A stretch of 57,764 nt of DNA from Olivibacter sitiensis DSM 17696. GTDB taxonomy: Bacteria > Bacteroidota > Bacteroidia > Sphingobacteriales > Sphingobacteriaceae. The position numbers and the translations under genes are program-made. This document shows, piece by piece, positions 3,609-57,629 of this stretch. Below the pieces are notes generated by a model. That model was given only the letters and a program-made list of their open reading frames with translations, had not been told where the DNA came from and did no database searches. The stretch is taken from assembly GCF_000427965.1 (NCBI RefSeq), contig NZ_ATZA01000034.1:4962-62725 (forward strand), written 5' to 3'. Position 1 is the first letter of the stretch. Every line of letters starts with the position of its first letter.

Positions 3609-4499
3609 ATGAACAATATGCCCCATTGCCGGAGATTACTTTTTGGTTTCATAGCGCTCACGCTTTTCTTGATGTCCTTTCAGGTATTGGATATTTATTT
3701 TGAGAAAGGGAGGAGGCTTGGGGAGCTGGTAGATGCCGAGCTGGAGGAGGTTTCGGGATTGCTGGCATCGAGAAGCAACGAGGGCTATTTCTGGGTGCAC
3801 AATGACAGTGGCGACGAGGCTCGTTTTTTTCTGTTGGATAGTACGGCACAAAAGAAAGCTACTTACTACTTGCAGGGGGTGAAGGCAGTGGATTGGGAGG
3901 ATATGGGCTACCTGACACTCGGCGATAAGCACTACCTGCTTTTGGGCGATATAGGCGACAATGGTGCCAGGCGTCCCTTTGTGCAGGTACACATGGTAGA
4001 AGAACCCGTGTACCGGGCAGGAAAAATGGTGGATACCATTGCTCCATCTGCCATAAAGACCTATTCATTGCGTTATCCCGATGGAGCTCGGGATGCCGAA
4101 TCACTTTTCTACGATCCCATAGATCAGCAATTGTATATCATTAGTAAGCGCGATTTGCAAGCGCAGGTTTATCGCACACCGCTGTTGCAAGCGCAGGACA
4201 CTTTGGTGTTGCAGCGTTGTGCCACTTTGCCTTATACTTTCCTTACCGGTGCGGATATTGCCCAGGATGGCTCTGAGGTGCTGGTGAAAGACCTGCTCCA
4301 CGTGTACTATTGGAAGCGTCAGGGCAAGGAGCCACTGCCCGCACTGTTTGCCAGAAAGGGGGAAGAACAACCCTATGAGCCGGAGACACAGGGCGAGGCG
4401 ATAGCCTTTGGTACACGGGGAGAAGGGTATTATACCCTAGGCGAAAGGCCCTTCGGCCTATCTGCGTATTTAATGGCTTATGCCAGGAGAGGGAACTAG
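3609..4499 (+). CDS. Membrane-anchored putative beta-propeller protein
   Basis: This 296-residue protein starts at the ATG at 3609, directly before one N-terminal hydrophobic segment (about residues 9-24). The rest is probably periplasmic or surface exposed. It contains the motifs VSGLLASRSNEGYFWVHNDS, then LLLGDIGDN and YPDGARDAESLFYD. These resemble propeller proteins that compare a recorded value with its status, but I recognise no enzyme family and no catalytic residues. It is divergent from the MBL-rhodanese gene and convergent with the aminotransferase gene. The role is unknown. Confidence 0.75.
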   Translation: MNNMPHCRRLLFGFIALTLFLMSFQVLDIYFEKGRRLGELVDAELEEVSGLLASRSNEGYFWVHNDSGDEARFFLLDSTAQKKATYYLQGVKAVDWEDMGYLTLGDKHYLLLGDIGDNGARRPFVQVHMVEEPVYRAGKMVDTIAPSAIKTYSLRYPDGARDAESLFYDPIDQQLYIISKRDLQAQVYRTPLLQAQDTLVLQRCATLPYTFLTGADIAQDGSEVLVKDLLHVYYWKRQGKEPLPALFARKGEEQPYEPETQGEAIAFGTRGEGYYTLGERPFGLSAYLMAYARRGN

Positions 4500-4529
4500 C
4501 CATAGGCCGTCTTTCAGGGCAGCCTATGG
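4500..4529. terminator. Hairpin between convergent genes
   Basis: CCATAGGC (4500-4507) pairs with GCCTATGG (4522-4529). It begins right after the stop codon of the upstream gene and sits between convergent genes. No clear T tract follows. Confidence 0.45.
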
Positions 4530-4540
4530 CAATGGGTATC

Positions 4541-5740
4541 TTACACGGTTTTCCCGGGATATTGTGCTAGTCCATCCGCTAGGCAGTCCAGTGCTTGGCG
4601 TAAGTCCTCTTGGTTGAGCACGTAAGCCAGTCGCACTTCATTCTTGCCGGCGCCGGGCGTGCTGTAGAATCCGGTTGCGGGAGCCATCATCACCGTCTTT
4701 TCGTCCTTGGAAAAGCTTTCCAGCATCCATTGGCAAAAGCGATCTGCATCATCTATGGGAAGCTTGGCCACTACGTAAAAGGCACCACCGGGCGTGCTGC
4801 AAAAGACGCCGGGGATGGCATTCAACCCTTCTACCAAGATGTTTCTACGTATGGTGTACTCTTCAAGCACCGTGTCAAAATAACTTTGAGGAGTGTCTAT
4901 GGCGGCTTCCCCTGCAATTTGCGCTACCGAAGGCGCACTGAGCCTGGCTTGGGCAAATTTGAGGGAAGTTTGCAGCACTTCTTTGTTCTTGGTAATGAGG
5001 CAGCCCAGGCGTGCCCCACACGCGCTGTAGCGCTTGGATACCGTATCGAACACCACCACGTGCTCTTCTATGCCGTCAAGGTGCATAGGGGAGACAAATT
5101 CATTGCCATCATAGCAAAATTCACGGTATGCCTCGTCGGAAAACAAGTATAAATCATGCTTAAGACAGAGTGCCTTCAAGGACTCCATCTCTTCTTTGGA
5201 ATAGAGGTAACCTGTCGGGTTATTGGGGCTGCAGATGGCGATCGCTTTTGTCTTGCTGTCAATGAGCTTTTCAAATTCGGCAATGCTGGGAAGGGCAAAT
5301 CCGTTCTCAATAGTAGAAAGGATGGGCCGGATCGTGACGTCTGCCATGCAGGCAAAGCCATTGTAATTGGCATAGAAGGGCTCCGGAATGATGATCTCGT
5401 CGCCTGGGTTGAGGCAGGCCAAGAAAGCAATGGTAATTGCTTCCGATCCGCCATTGGTCACCATTATTTGGCTGGCATCTACGCCATAGCCCAGTTTGTT
5501 GTAGTAGGTAGACAATTTTTCGCGGTAGGAGGCGGTGCCTTCGCTAGGAGTATAGGCCCATACCTTAAAGTCTATATGCTTGACGGCATCCAGCATAATT
5601 TCCGGTGTGGGGATATCGGGTTGCCCGATATTGAGGTGAAATACTGTCTTGCCATCTTTCTTTGCCTTATCGGCATAGGGCGTCAGCTTCCGTATAGGAG
5701 AGGCAGGCATGTCGATGCCTTTTTTTGCTATTTTGGGCAT
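4541..5740 (-). CDS. PLP-dependent class I aminotransferase
   Basis: This 399-residue protein belongs to the fold-type I aspartate aminotransferase superfamily. Visible landmarks are IGQPDIPTP near residue 38, NGGSEA at 96-101, the NNPTG segment at 173-177, SDEAY at 201-205 and the PLP-lysine motif SKRYS with K236. The substrate cannot be told from the sequence; aspartate, aromatic or branched-chain amino acids are all possible. The length is normal. It lies downstream of the DUF1573 gene on the same strand but is separated from it by a strong terminator, so it is probably transcribed alone. Confidence 0.88.
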   Translation of the reverse strand: MPKIAKKGIDMPASPIRKLTPYADKAKKDGKTVFHLNIGQPDIPTPEIMLDAVKHIDFKVWAYTPSEGTASYREKLSTYYNKLGYGVDASQIMVTNGGSEAITIAFLACLNPGDEIIIPEPFYANYNGFACMADVTIRPILSTIENGFALPSIAEFEKLIDSKTKAIAICSPNNPTGYLYSKEEMESLKALCLKHDLYLFSDEAYREFCYDGNEFVSPMHLDGIEEHVVVFDTVSKRYSACGARLGCLITKNKEVLQTSLKFAQARLSAPSVAQIAGEAAIDTPQSYFDTVLEEYTIRRNILVEGLNAIPGVFCSTPGGAFYVVAKLPIDDADRFCQWMLESFSKDEKTVMMAPATGFYSTPGAGKNEVRLAYVLNQEDLRQALDCLADGLAQYPGKTV

Positions 5741-5784
5741 TTTTTGTTTTGAAAATTTTTACAAAACTACTAATTCTCGGCGCA

Positions 5785-5818
5785 TAAAAAAGCCATCTTT
5801 TGCATGTGAAAAGATGGC
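5785..5818 (-). terminator. Intrinsic terminator of the DUF1573 gene
   Basis: GCCATCTTTT (5792-5801) pairs perfectly with AAAAGATGGC (5809-5818). Read on the minus strand, the hairpin is followed by a run of six T. It sits just after the DUF1573 stop codon. Confidence 0.85.
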
Positions 5819-5842
5819 CTTGTATACTTTGTGTGCTTCTGT

Positions 5843-6232
5843 TTATTTTGCCACTACCTCACCCTTGATAATCAGTGTTTTGCTGGGTGTTTTTGCATTG
5901 GATGCAATGGTGATCGGTTTCGAAAAAGGTTGGGCTGCTGCTGCATTGAAGGTCACCTTTATTTGGCCTTCTTCACCAGGTTTTACAGGTGTTTTTGAAT
6001 AGTCAGGAACGGTGCAGCCACAAGTAGACTGAATATTGCTGATAATGAGGGGAGCAGTACCCGTATTGGTGAATTTGAAAGTGTATGTGACGGGCGTGCC
6101 CTGCGGGATCTTCCCGAAGTCATGGGTTTCTTGTTCAAATTTGAATTCAGCTTTTTCCTGAGCCGAAGCAGTAATACCTGCAAACGCCAAAAAGGCGAAT
6201 ACAATGGTGCAAATCATGACGAATCTTTTCAT
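5843..6232 (-). CDS. Secreted DUF1573 protein
   Basis: This 129-residue protein has a Sec signal peptide (hydrophobic core about residues 5-22, then SAQE) and a single DUF1573 domain. The domain begins at HDFGKIPQG and carries the typical STCGCTVPDYSKTPVKPGE block, continuing with PITIASNA near the end. DUF1573 is an immunoglobulin-like fold very common in Bacteroidota exported proteins; its role is not established. The gene has its own promoter (6305-6335) and terminator, so it is a single-gene unit. Confidence 0.9.
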   Translation of the reverse strand: MKRFVMICTIVFAFLAFAGITASAQEKAEFKFEQETHDFGKIPQGTPVTYTFKFTNTGTAPLIISNIQSTCGCTVPDYSKTPVKPGEEGQIKVTFNAAAAQPFSKPITIASNAKTPSKTLIIKGEVVAK

Positions 6233-6304
6233 TTTTTCTATCTTTTCGATAATTAAATCAATTTACGTCTAGCTATAGACAATGATGTGGACTAAAAGTT
6301 TAAA

Positions 6305-6335
6305 CAAATATATTCTATTGTTTCATAGTAAGCAA
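6305..6335 (-). promoter_or_regulatory. Promoter of the DUF1573 gene
   Basis: On the minus strand TATATTTG (6305-6312) matches the Bacteroidota -7 box, and TTG (6333-6335) stands 20 bases upstream as the -33 element. The start codon is about 70 bases downstream. Confidence 0.65.
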
Positions 6336-6369
6336 GCATCGTGCCTTAAAAAAATCTATATATTTTTAC

Positions 6370-6377
6370 TACATTTG
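6370..6377 (+). promoter_or_regulatory. Promoter -7 box for the fused E1 gene
   Basis: TACATTTG fits TAnnTTTG and lies 25 bases before the ATG at 6403. No good -33 TTG is visible at the expected distance. Confidence 0.5.
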
Positions 6378-6402
6378 AACGCTTAGGATATAGCTAATAG
6401 AC

Positions 6403-8814
6403 ATGATTGCGACTTCATATACTGACCCTATAGATAACACCAAACTGAGTTTTGATGATTTTAAGGCGATGGTACTCAATGACTATCGCCTGGTATGCGA
6501 GAGCCGTCAGGCTAGTTTGCTCGGGCGCAAGGAAGTGCTCACGGGCAAGGCCAAGTTTGGTATTTTTGGCGATGGCAAGGAAGTGGCACAAGTCGCTATG
6601 GCCAAGGTGTTTCGCGAGGGCGATTGGCGTTCGGGTTATTACCGCGATCAGACCTTTGCCTTTGCCACCGGCATTTCTTCCGTCTATGAGTTCTTTTCGC
6701 AGATGTATGCCAATCCGGACATCCATGCCGAGCCTGCCTCGGGCGGACGTATGATGAACGGGCATTTTGCTACGCGCCTGCTGGACGAGAAAGGGGAGTG
6801 GAAAAGCCAAATGGAAATGAAAAATTCCTCTGCCGATATCTCCACTACCGGAGGCCAGATTCCACGACTGGTAGGCTTGGCGCAGGCGTCCAAAATATAT
6901 AGAAATAACGCCGATCTTCACTATCTGACCCATTTTTCGAATACGGGCAACGAGGTGGCATTTGGCACTATCGGCAATGCTTCTACCTCTGAGGGTGTGT
7001 TTTTCGAAGCGCTCAATGCGGCTGGCGTGATGCAGATTCCCATGGTGCTGTCCGTATGGGACGACGGCTATGGCATTAGCGTGCCTGCGGCCTATCAAAC
7101 GCTCAAGGAAGATATTTCCGAAATCTTGCGCGGCTTTCAGCGTGGGGAGGACGGATTGGGCTATGAAATATTCAAGGTGAAGGGATGGGATTATCCGGGA
7201 CTATGCGAGGTATATGAAAAGGCCTCCGACATCAGTCGTCGCGAGCATGTCCCCGTGCTGATCCACGTTATCGAAATGACCCAGCCTCAGGGACATTCTA
7301 CCTCGGGCTCGCACGAAAGGTACAAGTCCGGAGAACGGCTTGCCTGGGAGAAGGAATACGACTGCAACTTGCAGATGAGACGCTGGATCATATCTTCTGG
7401 CATTGCCGAAGAGGAAGTGCTTGTGGGGATTGAACAACAGGCGAAAGAATATGTGCGTGAGGAGCAGCGCCGCGCATGGAGCGACTATGGTAAGGCTTTT
7501 CACCAAGAGGCAACGGAGGCGATAGACCTTATCCGTGCCGTAGCTTCCGAGATAGCGGAGCGCGTGGCAGATGAGTTGAGCTCGGCGGTAGAGCCTACCC
7601 AAAAGCAGATATATGCTTCCGTCAGGAAAGTGCTGCGCACCACGGTAGGGGCAGAAACGGAAGCGCGCACGCGCCTGATGGATTGGTACAGAAGGCAGCA
7701 GGGGGTGATAGCCGATCGCTATCATTCCAAACTGTTTACCGATACGGACAATGCCGTCTCCAGGCTGCAACCCGTGGCGGCCATATATGGCGATAGCCCA
7801 AAAGTGGTGGACGGCAGGGAAGTGCTGAACGCCTGCTTTGCTGCCAATTTTGAGCGCGATGCCCGTCTTTTGGCATTTGGGGAAGATGTGGGCGTGATAG
7901 GCGACGTCAATCAGGGTTTTGCTGGCTTGCAAAAGCGTTTTGGTGAGCAGCGGATATTCGATACGGGCATTCGGGAGACGACCATCGTAGGCCAAGGAAT
8001 TGGCCTGGCCTTGCGTGGCCTGAAGCCCATAGCGGAAATTCAGTATTTGGATTACTTGCTGTATGGGCTTACGGCCCTGAGCGATGATTTGGCTTGCCTC
8101 AGCTACCGTACCAAGGGGGGGCAGAAGGCGCCGGTCATTATCCGGACAAGAGGGCACCGATTGGAAGGCATCTGGCACTCGGGATCGCCCATGAGCATGA
8201 TCTTGGGTTGCCTGAGGGGGCTGCACGTATGCGTGCCCCGCAATATGACCCAGGCGGCGGGCATGTACAATGCCCTGCTGCGGTCCGATGAACCTGCACT
8301 GGTGATCGAATGCCTGAACGGCTATCGCCTCAAGGAACGTATGCCGGATAATGTGGGCGATTTTATCGTGCCCTTAGGGCAGGCAGAGGTCTTGCGAGAA
8401 GGGAGCGATATCACCGTGGTCTCCTATGGCTCCACCTTACGTGTGGTGCAAGAGGCCACATCCGAACTGGAAAGACTCAATATCCAGGTGGAGATCGTAG
8501 ATCCGCAAACCTTGCAACCTTTTGATATACATCATACGTGCGTCGCATCCTTGCAGAAGACCAATAAGCTGTTGGTGGTGGATGAGGATGTGCCGGGAGG
8601 CGCTTCCGCCTTCATATTGCAACAGATACTAGAAGTGCAAAAGGGCTATTATTATTTAGATAGCAACCCCCGCACCCTAACTGCCAAGGCACATAGGCCA
8701 CCCTATGGGTCCGATGGCGATTATTTCTCCAAACCTTCGGTAGATGATGTCGTGGAGCTGGTATACGAGATGATGCACGAGTACAATCCAGCGAAGTATC
8801 CTGCAATTTTTTAG
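6403..8814 (+). CDS. Fused alpha-beta E1 component of a 2-oxoacid dehydrogenase
   Basis: This 803-residue protein joins the two E1 subunits that are separate in most bacteria. The alpha half (about 1-440) has the thiamine-diphosphate region, with GNASTSEGVFFEALNAAG followed by VWDDGYGISVP and the phosphorylation-loop-like STSGSHERY. The beta half (about 470-803) begins with FGEDVGVIGDVNQGFAGL and includes GIRETTIVGQGIGLALRG and the C-terminal transketolase segment SYGSTLRVV. It would decarboxylate branched-chain 2-oxoacids or pyruvate and pass the acyl group to an E2. Fused E1 proteins of this kind are common in Bacteroidota. No E2 or E3 gene is nearby, so the partner must lie elsewhere. Substrate choice is inference. 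Confidence 0.88.
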   Translation: MIATSYTDPIDNTKLSFDDFKAMVLNDYRLVCESRQASLLGRKEVLTGKAKFGIFGDGKEVAQVAMAKVFREGDWRSGYYRDQTFAFATGISSVYEFFSQMYANPDIHAEPASGGRMMNGHFATRLLDEKGEWKSQMEMKNSSADISTTGGQIPRLVGLAQASKIYRNNADLHYLTHFSNTGNEVAFGTIGNASTSEGVFFEALNAAGVMQIPMVLSVWDDGYGISVPAAYQTLKEDISEILRGFQRGEDGLGYEIFKVKGWDYPGLCEVYEKASDISRREHVPVLIHVIEMTQPQGHSTSGSHERYKSGERLAWEKEYDCNLQMRRWIISSGIAEEEVLVGIEQQAKEYVREEQRRAWSDYGKAFHQEATEAIDLIRAVASEIAERVADELSSAVEPTQKQIYASVRKVLRTTVGAETEARTRLMDWYRRQQGVIADRYHSKLFTDTDNAVSRLQPVAAIYGDSPKVVDGREVLNACFAANFERDARLLAFGEDVGVIGDVNQGFAGLQKRFGEQRIFDTGIRETTIVGQGIGLALRGLKPIAEIQYLDYLLYGLTALSDDLACLSYRTKGGQKAPVIIRTRGHRLEGIWHSGSPMSMILGCLRGLHVCVPRNMTQAAGMYNALLRSDEPALVIECLNGYRLKERMPDNVGDFIVPLGQAEVLREGSDITVVSYGSTLRVVQEATSELERLNIQVEIVDPQTLQPFDIHHTCVASLQKTNKLLVVDEDVPGGASAFILQQILEVQKGYYYLDSNPRTLTAKAHRPPYGSDGDYFSKPSVDDVVELVYEMMHEYNPAKYPAIF

Positions 8815-8819
8815 TAATA

Positions 8820-8903
8820 AGTTTTACGTTATAAGTTTTACGTTATAAGTTTTAAAAAGCCTAAGTCACCGCATTTAATACTTATTACTTATAACGTAAA
8901 ACT
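8820..8903. terminator. Bidirectional hairpin built from a tandem repeat
   Basis: A 17-base block beginning AGTTTTACG occurs twice, overlapping by 3 bases (8820-8836 and 8834-8850). Its exact reverse complement stands at 8887-8903. The hairpin sits between two convergent genes and could stop transcription from either side. Confidence 0.65.
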
Positions 8904-8916
8904 CAACAAGGTGCCG

Positions 8917-9627
8917 CTAAAAATTGGGCTTCAATAGGTACTTGTCGTAGAACCTAAATATATGTTCGGTGGCTTCCTCGGCAGTGTCTACTACGCGGTA
9001 GAGATTGAGGTCTTCCTCATTTATCTTTCCTTCGCCCAGCATCTTTTGCTCTATCCACTCAAACAGGCCGCTGAAAAAGCTTTTCCCCACAAATACAATG
9101 GGGAAGCGGGCGATCTTGCCGGTTTGTATCAGTGTAATGGCCTCAAATAGTTCGTCCATGGTGCCAAAGCCACCAGGCAATATGATATAGCCCTGTGAAT
9201 ATTTCATGAACATCACCTTGCGCACGAAAAAATAGTTGAACTCGATCAATTTGTCCCGATCGATGTATTTGTTGTGAAACTGTTCGAAAGGGAGGTCTAT
9301 ATTGAGGCCAACGGATTTTCCTCCTGCCTCATATGCCCCTTTGTTGGCAGCTTCCATGATGCCGGGGCCGCCACCGGAGATGACGCCATAACCACGTTCG
9401 GTAAGCAATTTGGCACATTGTTCGGCCATCTTGTAGTCGTGATGCTCCCTCGATGTCCTGGCAGAACCAAAGATCGAAACACAAGGGCCTATCCGGGCTA
9501 ACTTCTCAAATCCTTCAACAAACTCGGCCATGATCTTGAAGATCTGCCAAGAGTCTTTCACCTTTATTTCCTGCCAAGTTTTGTTTTCGAATGCCTTTCG
9601 TATTTTGTCTTCGTTCGTATTAATCAT
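8917..9627 (-). CDS. LOG family protein (TIGR00730)
   Basis: This Rossmann-fold protein of the lysine decarboxylase-like LOG family has about 236 residues from Met at 9627. The diagnostic motifs are SGGGPGIMEAANKGA and, about 70 residues later, PGGFGTMDEL. Family members hydrolyse cytokinin-type or other nucleoside 5'-monophosphates to release the base. The motifs GGGxGxME and PGGxGTxxE are both intact. The frame is open back to 9675, but the extra 16 residues do not look like the family, so the internal ATG is preferred. Confidence 0.85.
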   Translation of the reverse strand: MINTNEDKIRKAFENKTWQEIKVKDSWQIFKIMAEFVEGFEKLARIGPCVSIFGSARTSREHHDYKMAEQCAKLLTERGYGVISGGGPGIMEAANKGAYEAGGKSVGLNIDLPFEQFHNKYIDRDKLIEFNYFFVRKVMFMKYSQGYIILPGGFGTMDELFEAITLIQTGKIARFPIVFVGKSFFSGLFEWIEQKMLGEGKINEEDLNLYRVVDTAEEATEHIFRFYDKYLLKPNF

Positions 9628-51433: not shown

Positions 51434-51589
51434 TCATGATGTTCCTTTCAGATCGCCCATATATTCTGCTGAAGGATATATCAGGTCGTCCTTGCTCACG
51501 TACCTACCGTCTTCCATCCTGAAGGAGGAATTTTCCAAATAGGCCTGACTACCTCCCAGACCATGGAATAATGCAAAGACATGTAGCAT
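51434..51589 (-). CDS. 51-residue ORF, possibly a displaced C-terminal tail
   Basis: This small frame starts 18 bases after the stop of the 185-residue secreted protein gene, on the same strand. Its text (FALFHGLGGSQAYLENSS, then MEDGRYVSKDDLIYPSAEY) looks coding, with no signal peptide. It resembles a protein tail more than a complete protein and may be the displaced end of a zincin-type module. The next frame (decayed, with a signal peptide) starts at its stop codon. Confidence 0.45.
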   Translation of the reverse strand: MLHVFALFHGLGGSQAYLENSSFRMEDGRYVSKDDLIYPSAEYMGDLKGTS

Positions 51590-51607
51590 AGCGATAACAT
51601 TCGACTC

Positions 51608-52165
51608 TTAATATGCAATTCGAATAGCTGAAAAAACAGGAGGCAAATAAATATAATCATTTACAGGAATGCTCATATTTACAGCATTAAACATTGGGTT
51701 GATCAGTCTATCAAAATCATAGAAAAATATACTTTTAGCAGACAATGTTTCCTCTTTTCTTTTCTTTGGCCCGTCAAACTTAATCAGGCAAGGCAGGATA
51801 ATCCGGGCGGATTTCCGATTGCCCAAGACGGAACAATAGTCAAACATCTTCAGGAAGGATACATCCTTGTTCTTGAACAGATCATACGCTACACTGTCAT
51901 TCAGGTGCACGGACCTAGCATTGCAACGGTACGGCGACACACGCTCCACGTCTATGACAAAGGCAAAAGTATATATCGTCACAGTATCGTTGTTAATGAT
52001 GTTTTCATTAGGCGCAAGGTAATCCCAGATGATGGCGTTTACTCTTTTTGACAGCCTTTGCGATGCAGAGGTATCCGCCTGCTTTTCCTGGCTCCAAGCA
52101 GCTGAAAGATCCAGAATAAGCGTAGCTATAAAAACAAAACAAAACTTCAATATATCCATTCGCAT
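51608..52165 (-). CDS. Secreted protein, function unknown, coupled to the orphan zincin
   Basis: This 185-residue protein (183 from the second ATG at 52159) has a signal peptide (hydrophobic core about residues 6-23, cleavage near AAWSQ). The rest has alternating strands and two single cysteines and matches no family I know. Either start overlaps the stop of the preceding orphan zincin gene (by 13 or 19 bases), so translation should be coupled. The pairing with a zincin module suggests an inhibitor or partner; this is inference. Confidence 0.65.
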   Translation of the reverse strand: MRMDILKFCFVFIATLILDLSAAWSQEKQADTSASQRLSKRVNAIIWDYLAPNENIINNDTVTIYTFAFVIDVERVSPYRCNARSVHLNDSVAYDLFKNKDVSFLKMFDYCSVLGNRKSARIILPCLIKFDGPKKRKEETLSAKSIFFYDFDRLINPMFNAVNMSIPVNDYIYLPPVFSAIRIAY

Positions 52166-52554
52166 TTATTTGCAAGATCGGGAGGTGTGTTGTACATCTG
52201 CACCAGTGCTCCGGCTATTGCCGGAAGATAAATGTTGGCCATCATTTCATGTTGAGTTTGATTTGCGGGCGAACCGGGATTAATGTTCTTAAAATATTGT
52301 AAGTAAGCGTGTACGCTTTCATGAAAAAATACAACAGTAGCAAGTTCCTTCGATGCGCCTGGCAGTACGTTACTATTAATTTCTATTTGTAGTCTTTCAT
52401 TTGTACTCGCTGCTACGTTGAAATAACCCAACTCGTGATCATACATATTGCTACCATCAACAAAATCAAACTCAACGCCTACTTCGGCCTCCATTTGATC
52501 CAATATACCTCTCATCCTATTGTTAAAATCCTTTGAATGGATTAGCGTGTCCAA
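52147..52554 (-). pseudogene. Orphan zincin module, 5' end missing or frameshifted
   Basis: The frame encodes a homologue of the C-terminal module of the 53627-54916 lipoprotein. The shared pattern is INSNVLPGASKEL, then FFHESVHAYL (HExxH) and QHEMMANIYL with a third His. Coding text runs upstream past the TTG at 52554 (NECLKNLLDTL matches the start of the lipoprotein module), but no ATG or GTG exists before a TGA at 52645, just after a run of 13 A (52651-52663). It is either a decayed orphan tip or reached by slippage in the A run. Confidence 0.6.
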
Positions 52555-52650
52555 GAGGTTTTTTAAACACTCATTCTGAAGGTCATTGTGTATTGGGCAG
52601 TAGCCGCTATAAATAGCAAAGATACTGTGGCAGTAAAAGTAGTCTCATCG

Positions 52651-52663
52651 TTTTTTTTTTTTT
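52651..52663 (-). repeat. 13-base homopolymer upstream of the orphan zincin
   Basis: The run is 13 A on the coding strand (13 T as given). An ATG stands 4 bases after it, opening a short hydrophobic frame that is not the zincin frame. Such runs slip readily in replication and transcription. Confidence 0.8.
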
Positions 52664-52683
52664 CGCAAGCTGGCAATTTGTAC

Positions 52684-53613
52684 TCAATATGATCGAGGCA
52701 CTTGGGAAGGAAGCATGACTTGTTCCTTAACATAGGCCTCGTAAAAAAAATTGTCAGAAAGCCACAGTTTTTTCTGCAATTGCAAAAAGTAGAAATCGAA
52801 TGATCCGCCAATAATCCCTTTACCCGGCACGTAAACAAACCGGTCTATTCCTCGATGCCGATTGGGTGCATCCTGTGTGCTCCAGTCACTGAACAGCCAA
52901 TAATGATATGCCGTATCCCTTCCCGTTGCCGTGCTATGCGACAGGAATAGGACGGGATATTCCAAAGGCCTGCGCAGTGAAGCGTACTCGTTACGTACAT
53001 CGTTGGGGGAACTTGTCTTCCTTGCCCGTGCGTATCGGTTCTCAAATTCTTTCGCTGTCAGGGTAGGGACGGCCGTGTTGATGAAGCACACCTTGTTATC
53101 GTTGGCAAACAGCAGTGGTGTATTGTCTATAATGGTGAAAAATTCCGTCAGGCAATAGGCGCTCTGAACATAGCCCGAATCGCTTTTATATACCAGTACG
53201 ATATCATCCTTCTTCAAATCCCGATAATCGTATCCGTCCCTCAGATATTTCGCCTGCCCATTTCGATGCATATCGCGTAATTGCTGCATTCCTATGCGCT
53301 CGTTTGGTTTCAATGTATCGATATCGATCCGTTTCCAGTTACTTGCCGTCCTTTTATCCCGTAGTTCGTTCAATTTGGGCAGTACCGAGAACAAGACCAA
53401 TTTGCCATCGTCATAGTCCAGGTTGAGCAAATGTACTGGGATATTGCCGCCATATAGTGTTTTTGACGACAGTTCGGTCTTGGACAGAAACCTATATTCC
53501 TTAGGTTCATTTTCTGCCAAGAGGAAGTATAGCTTCTTGTTTTGTGCTGTAAGCCAAAAGGCCTGGCACACTATAAGCAAAAATATCCCGATTACTGATT
53601 TGACGCTGCTCAT
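52684..53613 (-). CDS. Secreted protein, function unknown, downstream of the zincin lipoprotein
   Basis: This protein of about 309 residues has a signal peptide (about 1-24, cleavage near LTAQN). It contains YDYRDLKKDDIVLVYKSDSG and later SHSTATGRDTAYHYWLFSDW, but no motif that names a family. The frame is open to 53688, but the ATG at 53613 precedes the signal peptide. The gene begins 13 bases after the zincin lipoprotein stop and precedes the orphan zincin module, so it may be the partner of the lipoprotein. That pairing is inference. Confidence 0.7.
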   Translation of the reverse strand: MSSVKSVIGIFLLIVCQAFWLTAQNKKLYFLLAENEPKEYRFLSKTELSSKTLYGGNIPVHLLNLDYDDGKLVLFSVLPKLNELRDKRTASNWKRIDIDTLKPNERIGMQQLRDMHRNGQAKYLRDGYDYRDLKKDDIVLVYKSDSGYVQSAYCLTEFFTIIDNTPLLFANDNKVCFINTAVPTLTAKEFENRYARARKTSSPNDVRNEYASLRRPLEYPVLFLSHSTATGRDTAYHYWLFSDWSTQDAPNRHRGIDRFVYVPGKGIIGGSFDFYFLQLQKKLWLSDNFFYEAYVKEQVMLPSQVPRSY

Positions 53614-53626
53614 ATTATATCTTTTC

Positions 53627-54916
53627 CTAGGGAGTATTACATATGGTTCCTTGAGATTCACCTTTTCTCGTATCTCTTTCTTTCGCATTTAAATTTTTGT
53701 TCTCCGTGTCAGTTTCTATGATTCCAGTCATCGCCAATGCATTTGCTCTATCGGTCGGAAAATTTGGATTGAAACTTAAAATAGCTTCGGACAATTGATT
53801 TAAAAAATTTGTTGCCATTGTGCTATGTCCATTGACAAACATATACTTCCCGATGCTGCCTCCTGGAATATCTGCCATGTACTTTGTGATGTCGGGATAT
53901 TTACTAGCAAAATCTGACGGACTCAATTTATTGGATTCAACCGTTAAAAAAGCATGTAAAGCCTCGTGATACATAGTAACCAAAATATATTCCTTTGAAG
54001 CGTAATTTAACACATCTTCATTAATCTCAATGGTAGAATAAATTTGATAACCGTCACTATAATTATAGCCATTATTCAAGTTAATTCTCGAAGTATGCGT
54101 CCCATCTACCGTGTTACCTAAGGAACTTGAGGGCTTAAAAACCATATGGAAATCACAATCGCCCTGAAAGGTAGTTTTAATTTTTTCAGCAATATCATTT
54201 TTCAAATCGGGTAATTCTGCCAATATTGCCTGAGCACAAGGATAATTCTGAAGTGAATCGATAATGTCGTTGTTATTGTCATCGTTCCCTGGCGGCGCAC
54301 CCCCGCCCCCTCCTCCGACCGGTGGCGGATAGTAAGGCGGTGGGGGTGGGGTGTACGGCGGTGGACTCGGCGGTATATACGGAGGGAAAGGATTGGGCGG
54401 CGGCGGAACGGTCACCGGCGGGAGCTCCCCACCGTCTATGGTCTCGTCTCCCATGAGTACGATATTCCTGTTCTCAGCCAGGCCCGTCAGCGTATAGGTC
54501 TTGTCGCGGTCAAAGAACCCGACGTCGATAAGCCTGCCGTTTACCGTAAAACTCCCAACCACCAGCGAGTCGGGATTACCGAACTCGTATTGCCTTACCA
54601 CCCCATAGTAGGCGCCATCATACTTTACTACGTGAAGTTCCCTGTTTATCTGTTTGGTGGAGCGGATCAAGGTGGTAAACAGCGTGGAGTCTCCGTGTTT
54701 TTCTACCAGCGTACCGTTCCAGTCGGGAGTATTGAGGTTGGCAAATGCTGCCGAATCATCGGACGGGATCAACTGCCTCTGGTACCAGGCCGCCAGCCCT
54801 TGGATATCTTCCGGTTGATCTGTCTCGAGGATCAGATCAGGCTCCCTGGTACATGCCCAGAGCAATAATAGGAGCGAGGCCAATATGGTCAGGCCGGGTG
54901 TAAAATGTCTCTTCAT
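53627..54916 (-). CDS. Lipoprotein with proline-rich stalk and C-terminal zincin-like module
   Basis: This 429-residue protein has a lipobox LWAC (Cys22), an N-terminal beta-rich region (about 25-165), a proline and glycine stalk (about 169-210) and a C-terminal module (about 215-429). The module opens NDIIDSLQNYPCAQAIL, shows HEALH (H317-H321) with EINEDVLNYASKEY before it, and has a further His in NGHSTMA as likely third zinc ligand. The same pattern recurs in the orphan at 52147-52554. Base composition falls from about 60 to about 33 percent GC in sampled lines near the stalk/module junction. The likely activity is a metallopeptidase; the target is unknown. Confidence 0.75.
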   Translation of the reverse strand: MKRHFTPGLTILASLLLLLWACTREPDLILETDQPEDIQGLAAWYQRQLIPSDDSAAFANLNTPDWNGTLVEKHGDSTLFTTLIRSTKQINRELHVVKYDGAYYGVVRQYEFGNPDSLVVGSFTVNGRLIDVGFFDRDKTYTLTGLAENRNIVLMGDETIDGGELPPVTVPPPPNPFPPYIPPSPPPYTPPPPPYYPPPVGGGGGGAPPGNDDNNNDIIDSLQNYPCAQAILAELPDLKNDIAEKIKTTFQGDCDFHMVFKPSSSLGNTVDGTHTSRINLNNGYNYSDGYQIYSTIEINEDVLNYASKEYILVTMYHEALHAFLTVESNKLSPSDFASKYPDITKYMADIPGGSIGKYMFVNGHSTMATNFLNQLSEAILSFNPNFPTDRANALAMTGIIETDTENKNLNAKERDTRKGESQGTICNTP

Positions 54917-55102
54917 AACCGAGATTTTTCATTTACAATCGATCTAATTGATTAATCCTGAGGCTAATTAACGGAATTTGATTTTGTTCTGCAAGATTTT
55001 TTGTTAAAATTTGTTAAAAAAGGTAAATTAGCGTTAAATAGATCGGCATTTTGACCTGTTTTTCAGGATGTAGTTATATAATTATACATTAAATTCAAAT
55101 TG
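54917..55102. promoter_or_regulatory. Divergent intergenic region with repeated TTGTTAAAA
   Basis: This AT-rich region lies between divergent genes. TTGTTAAAA occurs twice in close succession near 55001-55017, read on the plus strand. No clean TAnnTTTG box is seen on either strand. Confidence 0.4.
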
Positions 55103-56911
55103 ATGCGGCCGTTATACACAATGAGGCAAAATGAAAGCATAAAGAACGTAATCTTTCCCCTTTTCCTGGTTTTCCTTATCGCCCTAACCTCGGGCCTGAA
55201 CTATTTCGGGCTGAAACGATCTTATTGGGGCACGGAACTTCCCCCGTTTATTTTCGGCGCATCCGTATCCTTATTGGGGGCAGGCCTGCTAGGTGCCACA
55301 AGGCTCCCGAATTTTCGGGTAGCGCAGATAGACATCGCGTTTGTGTTCTTCTATGCCTATATCTGCCTTCATTCCGTTTTAAACGCCTGGCCCTACCCTT
55401 CGACAGACCAACTGTACGTACCGGTGGGAATCCTGGTGTTCTACGTGCTGGTCAGGGTCGGAATGGGAGACCACCTGCCCAGGCTGTCAGGAGTACTTGC
55501 CCTGGGCATTATATCGATCGCCGGTTTTCAGGCTATCCTCGGGTTGGCGCAACATGGGGGTATGGTCCCTTATTTTCATCCGCTCTACAGAGCCGCAGGG
55601 TCTTTTGTCAATCCCGGCATTTACGGCTGTTTTCTCTCCCTGGGGCTCTGTACAGCCTTCGGTCGGGTGCTGGACGAAGGATACAGACGAAAGATCCCCC
55701 TGGTCGCCTTCGCCTTGCTGATAGCCGTGGCGCTGGTCCTTTCCGGATCGCGCACGGCATGGATCTCGACGGGCATCGGGATGTCGTTCGTCGTTATCTC
55801 ACGTTACCCGGGGCCGTTGGCCAATTTGAAGATCAGACGGGGCCTGCTGATCTGCGGAGCGTTCCTTTTTTTGGGCGGCACGTATCTTTTGCTCGAGATG
55901 AATCGGGCATCGGTTGGCGGCCGTATGCTCATCTGGAAGGTGGGTTGGCAGATGTTCCTGGAACAGCCTTTGTTCGGTCATGGTTACGGAGGCTTTTACA
56001 CCGGGTACGGAAATTACCAATCGGCGTATTTTTTGTCGGGAACCGCGGCCGTGGAAGAAATGCAGACGGCCGGCATGAATTATTATGCCTTCAACGAACC
56101 GCTGAAGATCATGGTGGAACAGGGAATGGTTGGATTGGTCCTGTTTGCCCTGGTTGTCGCGATCACGTTTGCGTTCGCCCTGAAGCGAATAGGCGCTGAG
56201 GGAAGAACGTCCCAAGGCCTGATAACCTTCGTTGCGATCGCGTTGGTCGTTCTGGTATTCGGATGCTTTTCATACCCTTTTCAGGATATTTCCATAGGGT
56301 TGCTCTTTGCGCTGTCGATGGCATACATTGCCGCACGCCAATCCGTTGAGGCGCCCATCCAAATAGCCCGGCTATCCGGGTTGTTCCGTATCCTGGCATT
56401 TGGGTGCCTGGTATTTTTCGGTTTCAGGTCTTTTGAAAAGATCCGCGCCATACTTGTCTGGAAACATGCGAAGGAGAACATCCTTGTCCAGGAAGGTGAC
56501 GCGCTGCGGGACTACGTGAAGGCCTATGCCGTACTACCGAACAACGGGGCTTTTTTGTTCAATTACGGAGCCGAGCTGGTCGATATGGGAAACTATGCAA
56601 AGGCCCTCGGAATACTGGAAAGGGCAGGGCGGTACGGAAACAGCATAGAGCTGCACTTGAAGACCGCCCGTGCCCACATCGGCCTGGGCCGGTATGACCG
56701 GGCAGAAGAGGAATATATCAGGGCGGCGCACATGAACCCCAAGCTATTTGTTCCTTTTTACGAACTGCTCCTCTTTTACGACCGGATCGGCCAGGTGGAG
56801 AAGGCAAGGGGAGTAGCGGCCATGATCCGCGATAAGCCGGTTAAGGTGCCATCGGAAACGATCGGCAGAATCAAGGAATTCAGTATCCAATATTTGAAGA
56901 AAAATGAATAG
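55103..56911 (+). CDS. O-antigen ligase/polymerase-like membrane protein with TPR tail
   Basis: This polytopic protein has 602 residues from the ATG at 55103 (or 596 from 55121) and about a dozen membrane segments. The periplasmic loop typical of the Wzy/WaaL superfamily (about 290-345) includes LFGHGYGGFYTGYGNYQ. The C-terminal part (about 480-600) contains tetratricopeptide repeats, with YAKALGILERAG and YDRAEEEYIRAAHM as helix pairs. Related proteins join glycans to lipids or to proteins. The JAMM lipoprotein gene overlaps its end by 8 bases. The substrate is unknown. Confidence 0.82.
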   Translation: MRPLYTMRQNESIKNVIFPLFLVFLIALTSGLNYFGLKRSYWGTELPPFIFGASVSLLGAGLLGATRLPNFRVAQIDIAFVFFYAYICLHSVLNAWPYPSTDQLYVPVGILVFYVLVRVGMGDHLPRLSGVLALGIISIAGFQAILGLAQHGGMVPYFHPLYRAAGSFVNPGIYGCFLSLGLCTAFGRVLDEGYRRKIPLVAFALLIAVALVLSGSRTAWISTGIGMSFVVISRYPGPLANLKIRRGLLICGAFLFLGGTYLLLEMNRASVGGRMLIWKVGWQMFLEQPLFGHGYGGFYTGYGNYQSAYFLSGTAAVEEMQTAGMNYYAFNEPLKIMVEQGMVGLVLFALVVAITFAFALKRIGAEGRTSQGLITFVAIALVVLVFGCFSYPFQDISIGLLFALSMAYIAARQSVEAPIQIARLSGLFRILAFGCLVFFGFRSFEKIRAILVWKHAKENILVQEGDALRDYVKAYAVLPNNGAFLFNYGAELVDMGNYAKALGILERAGRYGNSIELHLKTARAHIGLGRYDRAEEEYIRAAHMNPKLFVPFYELLLFYDRIGQVEKARGVAAMIRDKPVKVPSETIGRIKEFSIQYLKKNE

Positions 56912-57629
56912 TAGACGTATAGCGTTTGTACTCGCCCTCGCATTTTTTTTGCCGGCGTGCAGGAAAGACGAACCGGTCGAGCCGGAAGTAGAGGTATCCG
57001 ATATGTGCCAGCGAATAAACCTGCTGGAAAACGACGGTACGTTTGCGGAAAAGCTGAACGCTCTGCTTGCCGATGCGCGGACCGAAAACTATGAGAGCGG
57101 TTACCTGGTATACCCATCGGAGGCCAATGTCTTCCGCTACGAGCCGGTACGTGGCGAACCGGGCGAGGCTTCCATCGTGTTCGCCCCGCAGGGGCAGGTA
57201 GAGGGGCTCATGCATAGCCATTACGGGGATCTGTTCCCGACCTTTTCGGCGGCCGACGTCAAGGCGGTCTATGACACCTACAACGAAGAGCATATGCACG
57301 ACTACGGTACGTTCTTCTGTAGTGTGGTTTCCCCCAATGGAAATGCCTATTTGTTGAAAATCGAGGACATATACAGGTTCCTGTTCTTTTCCGGGCGGTA
57401 TTTCCTGCACCGGGAGGGATTTATGGCCTTTGAAATCAGTTACTATGAGAAACAGCAGGCCTATCTGCAAACAATGGGACCTGTCGGTTCATTCGAGATG
57501 GCACTCTGCGAGCTGCTGGAGGATTCCGGTCTGGTCCTTTTCAAGGCTACCGGGCCATTTCGTACATGGCTGAGATTGGAAAAGGACGAATATGGCAATT
57601 TGAGGGAAGTGGGATGCAACGTCGATTAA
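56904..57629 (+). CDS. Lipoprotein with JAMM/MPN-like metal motif
   Basis: This 241-residue protein has a lipobox LPAC (Cys19) and a domain with GLMHSHYGDLFPTFSAADV. Here H104, H106, S115 and D118 match the HxH...S..D metal site of JAMM/MPN peptidases, with the spacing one residue longer than usual. The flanking text (CQRINLLENDG at about 36, FFCSVVSPNGNAYLLKIED after the motif) resembles C-terminal modules seen in Bacteroidota secreted proteins. A metallopeptidase role is inferred. Its start overlaps the end of the ligase-like gene, so the two are coupled. Confidence 0.7.
   Translation: MNSRRIAFVLALAFFLPACRKDEPVEPEVEVSDMCQRINLLENDGTFAEKLNALLADARTENYESGYLVYPSEANVFRYEPVRGEPGEASIVFAPQGQVEGLMHSHYGDLFPTFSAADVKAVYDTYNEEHMHDYGTFFCSVVSPNGNAYLLKIEDIYRFLFFSGRYFLHREGFMAFEISYYEKQQAYLQTMGPVGSFEMALCELLEDSGLVLFKATGPFRTWLRLEKDEYGNLREVGCNVD

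Follow-up and report, generated by a model that had tools for sequence, protein, structure and literature searches.

The window analysed here, the whole 57,764-nucleotide stretch of Olivibacter sitiensis DSM 17696, probably contains a polymorphic toxin locus in which the toxin is anchored as a lipoprotein, with immunity proteins in the periplasm and an orphan tip cassette. Four minus-strand genes stand in a row, in the order P0001, P0003, the orphan tip and P0002 (Table 1). The reading draws on a lipoprotein signal, a zincin motif, exchange of tips between stalks, a partner gene that follows the tip, orphan cassettes, secreted partners and curated toxin domains on related stalks, all taken from the sequences of the window and its relatives. 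An earlier note on this DNA had likened the layout to that of polymorphic toxins and Rhs orphans, a comparison borne out by the tip exchange, the co-varying partner and the curated toxin domains.

Table 1. Features of the window discussed in the text (window coordinates)
Feature	Position	Strand	Remarks
P0001, 429-aa lipoprotein, proposed toxin	53627..54916	-	Cys22 signal, stalk, Pro/Gly hinge, zincin-like tip
P0001 signal peptide and stalk domain, residues 1-165	54422..54916	-	G+C 0.531; relatives carry other tips
P0001 Pro/Gly-rich hinge, residues ~166-212	54281..54421	-	G+C 0.709
P0001 exchangeable zincin-like tip, residues 213-429	53630..54280	-	G+C 0.356; HEALH 317-321; His364
P0003, secreted 309-aa partner, proposed periplasmic immunity protein (family I3)	52684..53613	-	
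Orphan zincin tip without stalk or signal peptide; putative silent or decayed cassette	52147..52644	-	
P0002, secreted 185-aa partner of the orphan tip (family I2)	51608..52165	-	Start overlaps orphan end
Open frame without a good start	51434-51607	-	40% over 45 aa to an RpoB-like frame, E 0.002, small local database
Wzy_C and TPR membrane protein	55100-56911	+	E 1.2e-16
241-aa lipoprotein, JAB-like HSH...S..D motif by eye	56904-57629	+	No Pfam match at E 1

P0001 had been described in the earlier note as a 429-residue lipoprotein ending in a module with HEALH and HSTMA, and both its coordinates and its motifs hold: a lipobox-type Cys22 follows a hydrophobic signal, and His364 of the tip lies within HSTMA. 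Among 399 genomes of the family to which the window belongs, 84 (its own included) match P0001 at an E limit of 1e-3, which hides weaker matches, and some of these match the stalk only and others the tip only. The closest stalks, from Sphingobacterium sp. CZ-UAM, S. detergens and Pedobacter ginsenosidimutans, carry different tips. At locus L033 of CZ-UAM, which is also the place of L143, three tandem stalk genes bear three unrelated tips and are followed by three unrelated small genes; two of these stalks are 92.8% identical in DNA, the identity falling from about 420 bp, toward the hinge. A conserved N-terminal part is thus joined to unrelated C-terminal domains, as in polymorphic toxins, and the search for the tip on different stalks that the earlier note had proposed shows that tips are exchanged between stalks. 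When two shallow alignments were compared as profiles, the stalk types of the window and of locus L041 showed no homology (probability 0.5%). Loose single linkage, on the other hand, places the window stalk in a cluster that holds 48 of 60 stalks, so the claim is limited to many stalk pairs being unlike, not to all being unrelated.

Base composition marks the same border within the P0001 gene. Its best G+C change point falls at codon 211, where hinge meets tip (0.573 before, 0.355 after), and the gain of 30.9 compares with no more than 10.6 in 300 codon shuffles; 43 open reading frames (ORFs) of the window have a mean of 0.476 (s.d. 0.035). This contrast is not general, as 62 relatives average 0.370 in the stalk and 0.351 in the tip, the stalk exceeding the tip in 36 of them overall and in 50 at third codon positions. 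P0003, at 0.455, differs in composition from the tip, which argues against a simple joint arrival of tip and partner.

To relate partner to tip and stalk we used 60 of the 62 full-length zincin proteins, from loci found without P0003 (1770 pairs). Loci fetched through P0003 matches (L116-L122, L130, L134, L135, L137-L139) were left out, and loci under 4.5 kb and frames identical to earlier ones were not counted. Where stalks were unlike, partners were alike in 88 of 103 pairs at a relative tip score of at least 0.4, in 22/66 at 0.3-0.4, 124/467 at 0.2-0.3 and 32/591 at 0.1-0.2, and in none of the 382 pairs below 0.1. Pairs with alike stalks and a tip score below 0.3 had alike partners in 12/87, 3/15 and 4/8 cases with rising stalk score. 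Regression on partner likeness gave a coefficient of 0.73 for the tip and 0.14 for the stalk (permutation P 0.0005 and 0.002), so that the co-varying downstream secreted gene anticipated in the earlier note is indeed present. The P0003 family follows 26 of 38 P0001-like tips (at least 170 bits) and none of 22 other zincin tips, the P0002 family follows 8 of the 38 and 1 of the 22, and other partner families come after 4 and 21, respectively. By these measures the tip is a much better guide to the partner family than the stalk is.

Related stalks also carry recognised toxin domains. The zincin-bearing stalk of L041 has homologous stalks with curated toxin domains, all scoring above cut-off: Tox-MPTase3 in L162 and L176 (E 1.2e-7 and 3.6e-16) and Tox-HNH-HHH in L209 and L216 (E 8.8e-19 and 7.1e-17). 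L162, L176, L209 and L211 match the L041 stalk directly and L216 is linked through L163, in searches whose E limits (1e-8 from the L041 stalk, then 1e-10 from L163) hide weaker matches. The partner in L211 is Imm49, above cut-off, and that in L209 is SUKH-like, below cut-off. On the related stalks, Tox-HNH-HHH and Tox-MPTase3 come from the known pool of toxin domains; the window tip itself is only SprT-like, below cut-off.

Several further tips and partners were seen. In the stalked lipoproteins of L163 and L174 the tips are C39-peptidase-like below cut-off (E 0.008 and 0.04), and in L173 the tip is CHAP-like by eye; a secreted partner stands beside each of the three (L221, L217 and L213). At L037 (6926-12672) seven homologous frames, the longest of about 200 amino acids and at least one of them broken, come after a JAB-like lipoprotein, and this tandem run looks like a homogeneous polyimmunity locus.

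The P0001 tip matches the Pfam SprT-like family with E 1.7e-4, the sole Pfam match of P0001 at E 1. It scores 21.9-23.6 bits, under the PF10263 gathering score of 25.6, which the relative L218 passes with 32.2 bits; 6 of 16 tips also match the M91 'Effector protein' family weakly. An alignment of 16 rows including the orphan has 13 invariant columns (tip numbering I7, L11, C16, F49, D60, N88, L92, E98, H106, E107, H110, H153, C215), which take in the HE..H motif, the later His, a Glu ahead of HExxH and one Cys toward each end. Among the 62 full-length relatives, the window included, HExxH is kept in 61 (the exception is a truncated frame), a further His motif within 90 residues in 56 and a Cys no more than 13 residues from the C-terminus in 58. 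Of the zinc-peptidase-like fold put forward in the earlier note, a SprT/minigluzincin-like tip is supported by profile and a low-confidence model, but not proven.

Both P0003 and P0002 start with signal peptides and neither has a Pfam match at E 1 (best NCBIfam matches E 0.62 and 0.11), in agreement with the earlier description of a secreted protein of no known family after each module. Profile searches found no solved relatives of P0003, and 14 members of its family gave no convincing Pfam match (best E 0.056); relatives occur in 44 of the 399 family genomes at an E limit of 1e-3, with weaker matches hidden. A simple hydrophobicity rule predicts secretion for 68 of the 71 distinct partner frames, compared with 184 of 553 other ORFs of the same loci; of the three zincin partners that do not pass, one is half of a split tip and two look secreted by eye. 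Another stalk group comprises 20 proteins with 19 partners (the partnerless one lies at a contig end), of which 14 pass. The five that fail follow two Tox-HNH-HHH nuclease tips, an Imm49-paired tip, one unidentified tip and a JAB-like tip (L223), the partner of the last failing even though its start resembles a signal peptide. On window-type stalks in L143 and L144, two partners of unidentified tips have no signal. Because partner secretion varies with tip type, each immunity protein may be located in whichever compartment its tip acts in.

The second module of the array is a diverged copy of the tip. The minus-strand frame at 52147-52554 holds EINSNVLPGASKEL, HESVH and HEMMA, the order of motifs already recorded in the earlier note. 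Blastp aligns it with the P0001 tip at 28% identity over 100 amino acids (E 9e-7), and a profile iterated from that tip recovers it at 73-74 bits, a sequence similarity that is beyond chance; HExxH, the later His and both conserved Cys are retained. The earlier note had this frame missing its own 5' end. No signal peptide or stalk is seen ahead of it, as that would imply, but the module reaches beyond 52554, beginning upstream at a conserved Cys (...LQNECLKNLL...) in an open frame that runs from 52644, right after an in-frame TGA. This frame offers its first start codons at 52554 (TTG, codon 31, within the module) and 52515 (ATG), and 13 consecutive A stand immediately upstream. Much of the C-terminal helical region of the long tips is missing, and the orphan may therefore be decayed. 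Stalkless tips that share the strand of a full-length gene bear HExxH in the window, L035, L041 and L042, and are fragments in L034 and L037; L044 is better read as a split gene. The array is shorter than the span first given for it (51434..54916), since 51434-51607 fits no identifiable module and is perhaps a decayed fragment or chance.

In the mechanism that we propose, P0001 would be an envelope lipoprotein in which a lipid anchor and a stalk lead through a flexible Pro/Gly hinge to a C-terminal zincin peptidase tip. That it is exposed at the surface is plausible, as K-(D/E)2-type signals are reported to direct Bacteroidetes lipoproteins there (PMC5080379); relatives often have C-K/R-K-D/E from the lipid Cys on, and CTREPD of P0001 matches only partly. 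The tip would be presented or handed to related neighbour cells and would there cleave periplasmic envelope proteins, while P0003 would sit in the periplasm of the producing cell and of related cells and block the tip. The stalkless tip would be a spare or decayed cassette beside an immunity gene of its own, P0002, from which protection may still come. Recombination at the hinge, joining a tip (and often its partner gene as well) to a stalk, would create new toxins. Toxicity, delivery, target, neutralisation, zinc binding and periplasmic action are what we infer here.

A surface protease of housekeeping or nutritional role, with a dedicated secreted inhibitor, could also account for the lipoprotein anchor, the peptidase-like tips and the secreted partners, the variety of tips then reflecting a variety of substrates. 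We consider this unlikely, as related stalks bear nuclease toxin tips with signal-less partners, in one case followed by Imm49, stalkless tip cassettes with partners recur, and the tandem homologous partners of L037 look like polyimmunity. Effectors directed against eukaryotic cells, such as amoebae or other hosts, are less likely still and in our view very improbable. Anchored N-termini with variable C-termini, as in the lipobox-anchored APD1/APD2 proteins, are described for the Amoebophilus group (PMC3482391), and the weak M91 matches could be taken the same way, but nearly every full-length tip gene has a tip-tracking gene directly after it on the same strand. Immunity genes point to bacterial rather than eukaryotic targets.

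That the genes are cargo of a prophage or island, mainly protecting or stabilising the element, with the toxin active against cells that have lost it, would change the main use of the locus and not its reading as a toxin, and is about as improbable as a surface protease with its inhibitor. The IMG/VR contigs L177 and L178 do have a zincin lipoprotein and partner(s) beside genes that look integrase- or phage-like by eye, phage-like genes adjoin L047, an integrase-like gene lies near L105, and kdsB has other neighbours in four same-genus genomes. Against this, the L041 copy sits between nusG-like and ribosomal protein genes, no element genes were seen by eye in the window between 46000 and 57764, and the window tip has no match in 50,697 phage records. 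A polymorphic toxin locus used between bacteria remains the reading that we prefer.

Because kdsB has other neighbours in all four other same-genus genomes compared, the window array looks like an insertion here, with its right edge beyond the contig. In these genomes the neighbouring Wzy gene of the window has no match at E 1e-10, and the P0001 stalk has none at E 1e-3, a limit that hides weaker matches. The class does occur in the genus: G001 has a zincin lipoprotein (L111) with a secreted partner (L235) on the contig that holds kdsB, about 5.6 kb from it and on the side opposite to the window array, G002 has a weak match and G003 a JAB-like one (L228).

The gene of Wzy_C/TPR appearance adjoins the window stalk type in the window, L033, L105 and L128. 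S. detergens L105 has this stalk type with a different tip in the same divergent position by the Wzy-type gene. Near that gene, L105 has a weakly transglutaminase-like gene (E 0.034), and L143 and L128 have a long secreted gene. The stalkless lipoprotein at the window's right end (56904-57629) reads like the tip of the stalked same-genus L228 protein, and relatives of it, 44-46% identical, adjoin the Wzy gene in L033 and L105. In the genome of the window, a second Wzy/TPR paralogue (33% identical; L236, 4869-8101) lies near a lipoprotein and a short-peptide gene of NVEALA-like look. The toxin-partner array of L041 spans about 4245-9618, the adjoining ribosomal protein genes being those of L11 and L1, and ribosomal or RpoB-like genes lie near the zincin loci L115 and L048 of two other genomes.

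Interbacterial weapons of Bacteroidota are known mainly through the type VI secretion system (T6SS) and a few secreted toxins. The locus suggests a little-noticed weapon class in these bacteria. The class, found in 84 of the 399 family genomes through matches to P0001, offers ready toxin-immunity pairs and brings out two partner families without a Pfam model, those of P0003 and P0002. Whether bacteria outside the myxobacteria can hand a lipid-anchored protein to a neighbour also becomes testable. More tentatively, and with rather less than even confidence, envelope lipoproteins may be a general toxin-delivery platform in Sphingobacteriaceae, perhaps in Bacteroidota, in which many stalk families would share a pool of peptidase, JAB and nuclease tips, immunity would be set per tip compartment, and contact- or vesicle-based lipoprotein transfer would work without a T6SS or TraAB. 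A single-family search for the VipB-family sheath gene (PF05943) found none in the own genome, a weak test for a Bacteroidota T6SS.

Among known systems, membership of the Rhs or contact-dependent inhibition (CDI) toxins was rejected, P0001 having no Rhs or filamentous-haemagglutinin repeat match in Pfam at E 1, as was known anti-phage defence, with no PADLOC model match at E 0.1 for the five proteins scanned. A literature search whose coverage is thin for most subscription journals found no publication on this lipoprotein family. Among the systems nearest in kind are SitA/SitI of myxobacteria, which likewise combine a lipoprotein N-terminus, several escort-domain families, a polymorphic C-terminus and an adjacent immunity gene; P0001 too is a lipoprotein with a polymorphic C-terminus and an adjacent partner gene. 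SitA tips are described as nucleases that act in the cytoplasm and are delivered by TraAB outer membrane exchange (PMC5562445, PMC8546572), whereas the window tip is zincin-like and its partner secreted, and the authors of SitA reported no significant homologues outside Myxococcales (PMC5562445). The window system may work like SitA/SitI, but we do not claim membership. Amoebophilus APD1/APD2 and Microscilla-N, also from Bacteroidota, join a conserved N-terminal domain (lipobox-anchored in APD1/APD2) to variable C-terminal effectors (PMC3482391). That source interprets the APD effectors as aimed at the host and deployed in parallel, whereas the window system, likened to them by description, has partner genes and orphan cassettes. 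The same source places HExxH tips of the Tox-MPTase1-5 and HopH1-M91 kinds at the C-terminus of polymorphic toxins, Tox-MPTase1-5 typically on Rhs-repeat proteins, while the window tip, best matched as SprT-like, stands on a lipoprotein stalk. The C-terminal domain of VgrG2b, a zinc-metallopeptidase, is toxic in the periplasm of bacteria and has a cognate immunity protein that counters it, but it is T6SS-delivered (PMC6899460). The earlier note knew of no described system of this make-up; since SitA, APD1/APD2 and metallopeptidase toxin tips are already described, that holds only for the combination and the host group, which appear new. The lipoprotein class likewise appears new and its principle known: by the anatomy of its genes, its place as a member of the polymorphic toxin kind, in a new setting in Sphingobacterium, Pedobacter and related genomes, is well supported.

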